From: Bacteroidota bacterium | GTDB taxonomy: Bacteria; Bacteroidota; Bacteroidia; Cytophagales; UBA9547 | Direction of reading: 5' to 3' | Assembly: GCA_004293915.1 (NCBI GenBank) | Contig: RDZG01000064.1 | Span: forward strand, 1-64,000 | DNA length: 64,000 bases | Position numbers and translations under genes: made by a program | Notes under the pieces: model-generated | Database searches by the model: none | Told to the model about the DNA's origin: nothing | What the model saw: the letters and a program-made list of their open reading frames with translations, nothing else | In this document: positions 15,676 to 17,357 of the stretch, one piece after another | Layout of the letters: every line of letters begins with the position of its first letter | Numbering within the stretch: the first letter of the stretch is position 1

Positions 15676-16197
15676 TTACAAAAAAACTCTATTGTTTCCT
15701 TCTAATAGTTCTGCATTAAACTTATCATAAAAATATTTGTAAGCATTTTGCTTTGATGGCATGGCTGGTCGAGATGGCTTGTAACTCCAGCATTGAACCA
15801 AAATTCGTTTTTGAATTTCTAGAATAGCATTGTTTTCAAGACAATAGATAATTGTATCTTCAAGTTGCTTATTTATAGTTGTTTTATGTGCATTTCTATT
15901 CCTAAATGTATCTTTTATTTCTACAATGCAAAACTCATTTTTAGATATTATTGCGAAATCTGCCCTGCCTTCACCTTGGTTTTCATTGTCAAAAAGCAAA
16001 CATTTGTCAATGGCTAGAAAATATAATTCTGTATAATTTGGATTGCTAGCGAGAAAATGAAAGTCATCATATTCAATAATAATACATTTTGAATTATTTT
16101 GATCTAAGATTTTAGTTTCAAGATTATTTGTGATTTCTAATAAACACTGATTTGATTCACAAATTGGAAATGCTTTTTGAATAGTTTTGGCTATCAT
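15676..16197 (-). CDS. PD-(D/E)XK-like protein, second gene of an ATPase-nuclease pair
   Basis: A 173-residue protein of no named family that I recognise. The central part shows a PD-(D/E)XK nuclease pattern: GRADFAII with Asp80, then IVEIKD with Glu93 and Lys95, followed by a helix with Gln111 (KQLEDTIIYCL). There are no signals or membrane segments, so it should be cytoplasmic. Its ATG overlaps the ATPase stop by 4 bases, so the two are translationally coupled. The arrangement (P-loop ATPase plus small nuclease) recalls anti-phage modules such as Septu, but the nuclease class differs from the HNH PtuB. Function is inferred, not shown. Confidence 0.72.
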   Translation of the reverse strand: MIAKTIQKAFPICESNQCLLEITNNLETKILDQNNSKCIIIEYDDFHFLASNPNYTELYFLAIDKCLLFDNENQGEGRADFAIISKNEFCIVEIKDTFRNRNAHKTTINKQLEDTIIYCLENNAILEIQKRILVQCWSYKPSRPAMPSKQNAYKYFYDKFNAELLEGNNRVFL

Positions 16198-17357
16198 TTT
16201 TTATACAATTCCATTAAGTTATAAAAATCTTGCATAATGATTTCAGAAGCAGAATCTAATAAAGATTCTGCAATCATCTTTGTTTCTCCATCAAAAATGG
16301 AACTTGCATAGCCATCTGCGAGATTGTATGCAGCAAATTCTTCTGGATTGATCCACGATTTTTTGGGTATAATTTTGCTTACCTCTTCCTCTGAACCTAG
16401 TTTTTCGGCAGTTTGAAATGCTAAAAGTAAATTATTGAGCGAAGTTAAAATATATGGACTATGCGTTGTGATTATTAACTTGTTTGATAATTGAAGATCT
16501 TGGTTGCTATTTGTGCATTTTTGAGCCAAAATATAAAGAAATTTTTGCTGCATATCAGGAAAAAGATTAAGTTCTGGCTCTTCTACAACAAACAATTTGG
16601 CTTGATTTTTTATTTCTCTATTATTTTCAATTACAAGTATTAATGGAATTGTTGATTGAAATCCACTTGAAGTATATTTTAATAAAATTTCCTTATTATT
16701 TTCTATTTTAATTATATCTCGTTCTTCTCTATATTCATAAGAAGCATTTAAAAAGCCAATATTTATTTTTTTTAGTATTGCTCTAGCTTTTTCAAATTCT
16801 GCAACAAAGTTTAAAATTGGTTTTGGAATTTGGATGTTATTAACAATAAGTCCCGCTAAAGAACCAATAGCATAAGATGTAAAAGAACGTTCGGCAGGAA
16901 TATAAATTGGATAATTTATTTCATTGAGTATTTTATCTGTCTTTTCTTTGAAAGATATATCTGAAAACAATTTTTTTTCTATATCATAAAATGATTCTGC
17001 TTTATTTCTATTTTCTAAAATTTGGACATGAATATTGTATAATTCAGAACTAATTCCTTGAAGCTTAAAATCACCAAATGAAATAACAGTTTCTTTTTTT
17101 TCAATTTTAAAATGATAATAAATTCCCAAGAATTCAATGTAAGAATCGTTTTCTAAAAAGCTCTCAATTAAATAATCAGACAATAATTCTTCAAATGCTG
17201 AAACTCCTAAGACAAATCTTCTTGAATGAAAAATACTAATCAACTTAGCCAAAACACTTTTTCCAGTAGATTGTGTGCCAATAAAAACCATTGTTTTTTT
17301 TAGCTCAATGTCTATTTCTTTAATCGGTCCAAAATTCTTAACAATAAGTCTTTCCAT
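16194..17357 (-). CDS. ABC/SMC-class AAA ATPase (OLD/RecF-like), first gene of an ATPase-nuclease pair
   Basis: A 387-residue P-loop ATPase. Walker A GTQSTGKS at residues 27-34 follows an N-terminal beta strand typical of RecF/OLD-type proteins (LIVKNFGPIKEIDIEL). An ABC-signature-like segment YTSSGFQSTIPL is at 228-239, Walker B LFVVEEPELNLFP at 255-267, and the switch histidine in TTHSPY at 297-302. The middle (about 50-220) is helical and lacks the long coiled coil of SMC proteins. No TOPRIM domain follows, unlike OLD nucleases; the nuclease appears instead to be the overlapping downstream gene. It starts 40 bases after the carB stop on the same strand, so it may ride on carB transcription. 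Likely a defence or DNA-maintenance ATPase. Confidence 0.83.
   Translation of the reverse strand: MERLIVKNFGPIKEIDIELKKTMVFIGTQSTGKSVLAKLISIFHSRRFVLGVSAFEELLSDYLIESFLENDSYIEFLGIYYHFKIEKKETVISFGDFKLQGISSELYNIHVQILENRNKAESFYDIEKKLFSDISFKEKTDKILNEINYPIYIPAERSFTSYAIGSLAGLIVNNIQIPKPILNFVAEFEKARAILKKINIGFLNASYEYREERDIIKIENNKEILLKYTSSGFQSTIPLILVIENNREIKNQAKLFVVEEPELNLFPDMQQKFLYILAQKCTNSNQDLQLSNKLIITTHSPYILTSLNNLLLAFQTAEKLGSEEEVSKIIPKKSWINPEEFAAYNLADGYASSIFDGETKMIAESLLDSASEIIMQDFYNLMELYKK

Follow-up and report, generated by a model that had tools for sequence, protein, structure and literature searches.

Which kind of system is encoded by the two overlapping genes that follow carB in a 64,000-nt stretch of a Cytophagales genome (contig RDZG01000064.1, hereafter the window), and which part of it could recognise a phage? 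A first-pass annotation had called two open reading frames with a 4-base overlap between carB and a MORN gene and read them as an inserted defence module. Both frames, here genes A and B, were found on the minus strand, with the ATG start codon of B located inside the last codons of A (Table 1). The neighbours are indeed carB (NCBIfam, 1421 bits), upstream of A on the same strand, and a gene for a 645-aa MORN_2-repeat protein downstream of B, all four genes pointing in the same direction. As the gap between carB and A is only 40 bp, the pair is probably cotranscribed with carB. The G+C content of the pair is 27%, compared to 32% in the window and 37% in carB. No integrase or reverse transcriptase adjoins the pair in the window, and no helicase was identified among the ORFs beside A and B. 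Judged from sequence, the two genes are not chance ORFs: both reading frames are maintained in different phyla, and all members found share one gene order.

Table 1. Features of the A-B pair, in window positions.
Feature	Position	Strand	Remarks
Gene A	16194..17357	(-)	387-aa OLD/RecF-type ABC ATPase (AAA_15/AAA_21), PDC-M29A homologue
Gene B	15676..16197	(-)	173-aa PD-(D/E)XK protein, PDC-M29B homologue, proposed nuclease effector
ATGA overlap of 4 bases, A stop/B start	16194..16197	(-)	
Walker A GTQSTGKS, A residues 27-34	17256..17279	(-)	G27, G32, K33 and S34 invariant
Hypervariable cassette, A residues ~44-147	16917..17228	(-)	between Walker A helix and YIPAER strand
PAER motif, A residues 154-157	16887..16898	(-)	R157 invariant
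Signature-like SSGFQS, A residues 230-235	16653..16670	(-)	S231, G232 and Q234 invariant
Walker B region, A residues 255-267	16557..16595	(-)	E259, E260 and E262 invariant
H-loop TTHSP, A residues 297-301	16455..16469	(-)	invariant or nearly so
C-terminal extension, A residues 311-387	16197..16427	(-)	proposed docking platform for B
D80 of B	15958..15960	(-)	D in 80/82 homologues, E in the other two; start of strand 81-84
E93-I94-K95 of B (ExK)	15913..15921	(-)	E93 in 82/82, K95 in 81/82; strand 88-95
Q111 of B, RecB-type Q motif	15865..15867	(-)	80/82; helix 101-121

Gene A matches the Pfam families AAA_15 (1.3e-24) and AAA_21, and its best PADLOC model is PDC-M29A (2.6e-44). In agreement with the first-pass reading of A as an OLD-like ATPase without TOPRIM, all four ATPase motifs are present, including a Walker B core of VVEEPE (residues 257-262), and their key residues are invariant or nearly so over the 44 sequences scored. 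In addition to the invariant Walker A, PAER and signature-like residues, the invariant positions include E259-E262, Q270 and T298-P301. Neither Pfam nor the predicted structure reveals a TOPRIM domain, the only part beyond the ATPase being a conserved C-terminal extension of ~70 residues. The predicted monomer (pLDDT 90.7) comprises a complete ABC head, a short, mostly helical insert and this extension, and its closest solved folds are PtuA of Septu/retrons and Rad50. Within A, covariation with B is strongest for residues 341-387 (r 0.65, 80 pairs), which fits docking of B at the C-terminus of A; from this covariation and by analogy, we propose that B docks on the C-terminal extension.

For B, no Pfam family match was obtained and a PDB sequence search with the B profile returned no match, while in PADLOC it matches only PDC-M29B models (8e-12). 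The commonest Pfam matches among its relatives, all sub-threshold, are PDDEXK_9, NERD and HSDR_N_2. The first-pass annotation had proposed a PD-(D/E)XK fold with Asp80, Glu93 and Lys95, residues that are conserved almost throughout (Table 1), and had considered that the small protein might instead lack a nuclease core. Such a core is predicted by AlphaFold2 (monomer, pLDDT 93.3, pTM 0.90), with a hairpin of strands 81-84 and 88-95 bearing D80 and E93/K95 and the following helix (101-121) bearing Q111. The top 11 Foldseek matches are all PD-(D/E)XK enzymes (among them Nt.BspD6I, RecU and Cdn1), followed by Mus81, Can2, BstEII, Hjc and Avs4 at lower ranks. As the Foldseek E-values are weak (best 0.019), the assignment of nuclease activity is based on fold class and motif, by which B is predicted to be a PD-(D/E)XK nuclease with the complete D-ExK-Q set. 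A Cys directly precedes the catalytic Asp in 68 of the 82 B homologues, and Cys18 and Cys66 are conserved as well; the B of the window has Ala at position 79 (15961-15963), a minority state that also occurs in L077, L094-L096 and L099.

A and B were neighbours everywhere they were found, as befits the two-gene module of the first-pass annotation, which had raised the possibility that they do not co-occur in other genomes. Among the best loci of a genome_contigs search, B directly follows A in 80 of 80 (78 recognised by HMM, two by the ExK motif), with hosts from Bacteroidota, Cyanobacteria, Proteobacteria, Campylobacterota, Bacillota and other phyla. This search used the A alignment as query, the B alignment being too divergent to serve as a pattern. 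In phylum-wide samples, each B found is preceded by an A and each A found is followed by a B. The 4-base overlap is the commonest arrangement among relatives (27/81), and the identity matrices of A and B are correlated (Mantel r 0.66, 0 of 2000 permutations). The distribution is patchy, with the pair present in 11 of 395 genomes of the phylum sample (scored by B) and in only ~3-5% of genomes across the samples searched. No B relatives were detected in viral contigs, plasmids or phages; for L158-type A, two weak, unannotated fecal-phage records were the only hits, with none in plasmids. The distant ATPases L161-L165 were placed outside the family as no B lies beside them. In one genome (G249, L063:7167-8371), A is represented by two ORFs of 252 and 148 aa, followed by a B ORF; this copy is either broken or affected by a sequencing error.

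The suggestion that this pairing may be undescribed did not hold, as it already exists as the PADLOC candidate PDC-M29 and its architecture is that of the published 'OLD-ABC ATPase + Novel REase'/WonAB family. Adjacent genes of the window match the A and B models of PDC-M29 in matching order, but score 150 and 43 bits compared to 589 and 198 bits for core members such as L066; by these matches, the pair is a divergent branch of PDC-M29. WonAB, from the Vibrio cholerae WASA-1 prophage, consists of an OLD-type ABC ATPase and a PD-(D/E)xK nuclease, both of which are required, and K34, R182, E300 and H333 of WonA and K71 of WonB are essential (PMC12137116). The system aborts infection without stopping phage DNA replication, overproduction of WonB halts translation without degrading the chromosome, and in the published model WonB sits on the dimerised C-terminal extensions of WonA (PMC12137116). 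According to its authors, WonAB belongs to the 'OLD-ABC ATPase + Novel REase' operons described in Krishnan et al. 2020, a group reported to include every WonAB homologue (0.96% of genomes; PMC12137116). Attempts to isolate escape mutants of WonAB failed, and its trigger was not identified (PMC12137116, PMC12409358).

Judged from architecture, motifs and PADLOC models rather than from a direct sequence alignment, the window pair resembles WonAB in having an OLD-type ABC ATPase without TOPRIM followed by a small PD-(D/E)xK nuclease. Matched by motif, K34, R182, E300 and H333 of WonA correspond to K33, R157, E260 and H299 of A, and K71 of WonB to K95 of B. In contrast to WonA, A has only 124 instead of 148 residues between Walker A and PAER; the ExK motif of B lies 24 residues further from the N-terminus than in WonB, and the pair is chromosomal behind carB in a Cytophagales relative, whereas WonAB resides in a prophage. 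Published WonAB qPCR primers, used as patterns, had no match in viral_contigs or the fetched loci. The same two-gene plan is shared with the 'OLD-ABC ATPase + Novel REase' operons, as far as these are described where Krishnan et al. 2020 is cited in PMC12137116. On sequence grounds, the A-B pair is almost certainly a phage-defence system of a kind described before, in agreement with the probable defence role assigned in the first-pass annotation.

Other ATPase-nuclease systems are less similar. In PARIS, an AAA_15 ATPase (AriA) also gates a small toxic nuclease, and A matches the AriA model of PADLOC (4.8e-29), but AriB is a TOPRIM nuclease; PARIS membership was rejected, there being no TOPRIM effector and the fold of B being PD-(D/E)XK. 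Septu and retron-associated PtuAB likewise combine an ATPase with a nuclease, and PtuA ranks first among the structural matches of A. PtuB, however, belongs to the HNH nucleases, and with a PD-(D/E)XK partner in place of an HNH protein the pair was not assigned to Septu. Gabija, with an ATPase fused to TOPRIM and the helicase GajB, was rejected as A has no TOPRIM and no helicase adjoins. PD-T4-4 is also an operon of an ATPase and a small nuclease, but its model PD-T4-4_A matches A more weakly (9.8e-16) than PDC-M29A does, and its inserts and C-terminal extension differ (PMC12137116).

What is new here is a hypervariable cassette in A and its shuffling with effectors; both this segment and the preference of the pair for sites behind housekeeping genes (see below) had been missed in the earlier annotation. 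No report of cassette hypervariability was found in the literature searched, the coverage of which is incomplete, and on inserts the WonAB paper discusses only differences in insert regions between systems (PMC12137116). Compared to its nearest relative L077, A of the window is 100% identical over residues 1-43 and 82% over residues 148-175, while identity amounts to 23% over residues 44-95 and 12% over residues 96-147. At the DNA level, the alignment to a same-genus copy ends at 17229 and restarts at 16906. A alleles that are ~85% identical elsewhere mostly share 10-40% of their cassette residues, and in 42 A pairs with flanks >90% identical the cassette halves average 46% and 30%. RecF controls with similar flanks remain at 76-96% throughout, with only two RecF pairs at that flank identity; at a flank identity of 0.6-0.7, the middle is 45-73% identical in RecF versus 27-61% in A.

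In Flavobacterium, a fixed site 82-88 bp behind lysS harbours different alleles. Flanks of distinct alleles at this site are 81-89% identical and cassettes mostly 8-41% (up to 50%), with one pair being near-identical throughout. Three types of B protein can be distinguished among these alleles, with 24-56% identity from one type to another; the type of B shows almost no correlation with the cassette (r 0.14, p 0.13). L064 and L203 share 86% of B and 12% of the cassette; conversely, L064/L072 and L107/L201 have cassettes that are 50% and 40% identical and B proteins that are 27% and 30% identical. Because related cassettes recur with different effectors, cassettes appear to be exchanged, and the overall pattern is best explained by recombinational exchange together with fast divergence. 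Alternatively, the segment could be an unconstrained, fast-drifting surface without sensor function, in line with AlphaFold2 confidence in A being lowest at residues 91-150 and with the fourfold sites of the flanks being already well diverged, so that the alleles are not very young and recent exchange is not claimed. We regard this as rather doubtful, since nearly all alleles retain a cassette of about 60-170 residues instead of losing it, the RecF lobes stay conserved at equal flank identity, and the L064/L072 and L107/L201 pairs show exchange.

We infer that the cassette is an exchangeable sensor of a phage trigger. On balance, we lean slightly towards the view that the family constitutes a modular innate-immune locus, in which a constant ATPase scaffold carries an exchangeable sensor cassette and is combined with a likewise exchangeable PD-(D/E)XK effector, both being shuffled between alleles by recombination, in Flavobacterium at the fixed lysS site. 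If true, each Flavobacterium strain would possess a single detector out of a large pool, and specificity could be read from, and swapped with, the cassette. The cassette marks the part of A that may detect phage, and natural alleles differing mainly in this segment provide ready-made swaps towards the trigger. As a new pairing the locus is ordinary, its kind being already named and one member tested, and its value lies in the exchangeable cassette and effector. Furthermore, the pair extends the WonAB type, for which experiments come from a single V. cholerae prophage, to a large, diverse collection in Bacteroidota and other phyla.

As to the mode of action, it is quite likely that A serves as sensor and gate, with the cassette reading the trigger, the C-terminus of A holding B, and freed B cleaving nucleic acid so that infection is aborted. 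A would form a dimer with ATP at composite sites, its hypervariable insert would sense the phage trigger, and the C-terminal extensions, seen here in structures predicted for monomers, may keep B inactive or stabilise it. Upon triggering, B would be activated or released to cleave nucleic acid, and the infected cell would halt growth before phage production. By analogy with WonB, which stops translation and leaves the chromosome intact, the target of B would more likely be RNA (tRNA or rRNA) than genomic DNA. PD-(D/E)XK enzymes are mostly DNases, and B could instead act by direct restriction, with A sensing unusual phage DNA or DNA ends and B cutting phage DNA without abortive infection. The nearest solved folds of A, which include Rad50 and PtuA, and those of B (DNA nicking and restriction enzymes, resolvases) would suit this alternative, but we deem it unlikely in view of WonAB, the closest tested relative, which spares phage DNA replication and the chromosome and stops translation.

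In two genomes of the same genus, the pair follows metF (gap of 10-15 bp), and other genes occupy the place behind carB. Judged from this difference in site, the pair is mobile, in agreement with the earlier notion of an inserted locus. Elsewhere, it is located directly behind lysS, valS or dnaK, and in L137 it separates the two halves of a split transketolase. In five loci (L098, L103, L112, L116 and L138), it lies between sdhA and sdhB of succinate dehydrogenase, in two of which it overlaps the sdhB ORF by a few bases. A four-gene version of the system, considered for five loci with conserved genes on both sides, was dismissed, as these flanking genes are sdhA and sdhB and the pair is inserted into a housekeeping operon. 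In 60 of 76 loci, the gene upstream is on the same strand (median gap 88 bp). The housekeeping sites, the short distance to a co-oriented upstream gene and the low G+C content suggest that the pair is a passenger riding on housekeeping transcription.

Of 122 neighbours, only a few match defence models (DRT reverse transcriptases, AbiLi, SoFic and a type IV restriction enzyme), and an enrichment of defence genes is not claimed from this count. Most neighbours are housekeeping genes rather than parts of defence islands, which was counted against a defence explanation. Together with the Rad50-Mre11 plan of an ABC ATPase plus nuclease and Rad50 among the top folds of A, this location in housekeeping operons might indicate a DNA-repair pair analogous to SbcCD/Mre11-Rad50. 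A repair function is nevertheless highly improbable for a pair that is carried by so few genomes, occupies different sites in sister species, is low in G+C and contains a hypervariable segment in A.

The sister-genome metF protein has no match in the genome of the window (G000, rated 100% complete). In one same-genus genome (G645, L059:1930-5028), the region behind carB contains a tandem array of five Uma2-family genes (putative restriction endonuclease, ~195 aa), the first two of which encode near-identical proteins. Another genome (G646, L058:2777-4468) encodes a second OLD/AAA_21-type ATPase of 563 aa with a long C-terminal part, directly upstream of metF and next to the A-B pair; this ATPase is absent from the corresponding place in G645. 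The surroundings of metF are perhaps a small defence hotspot.
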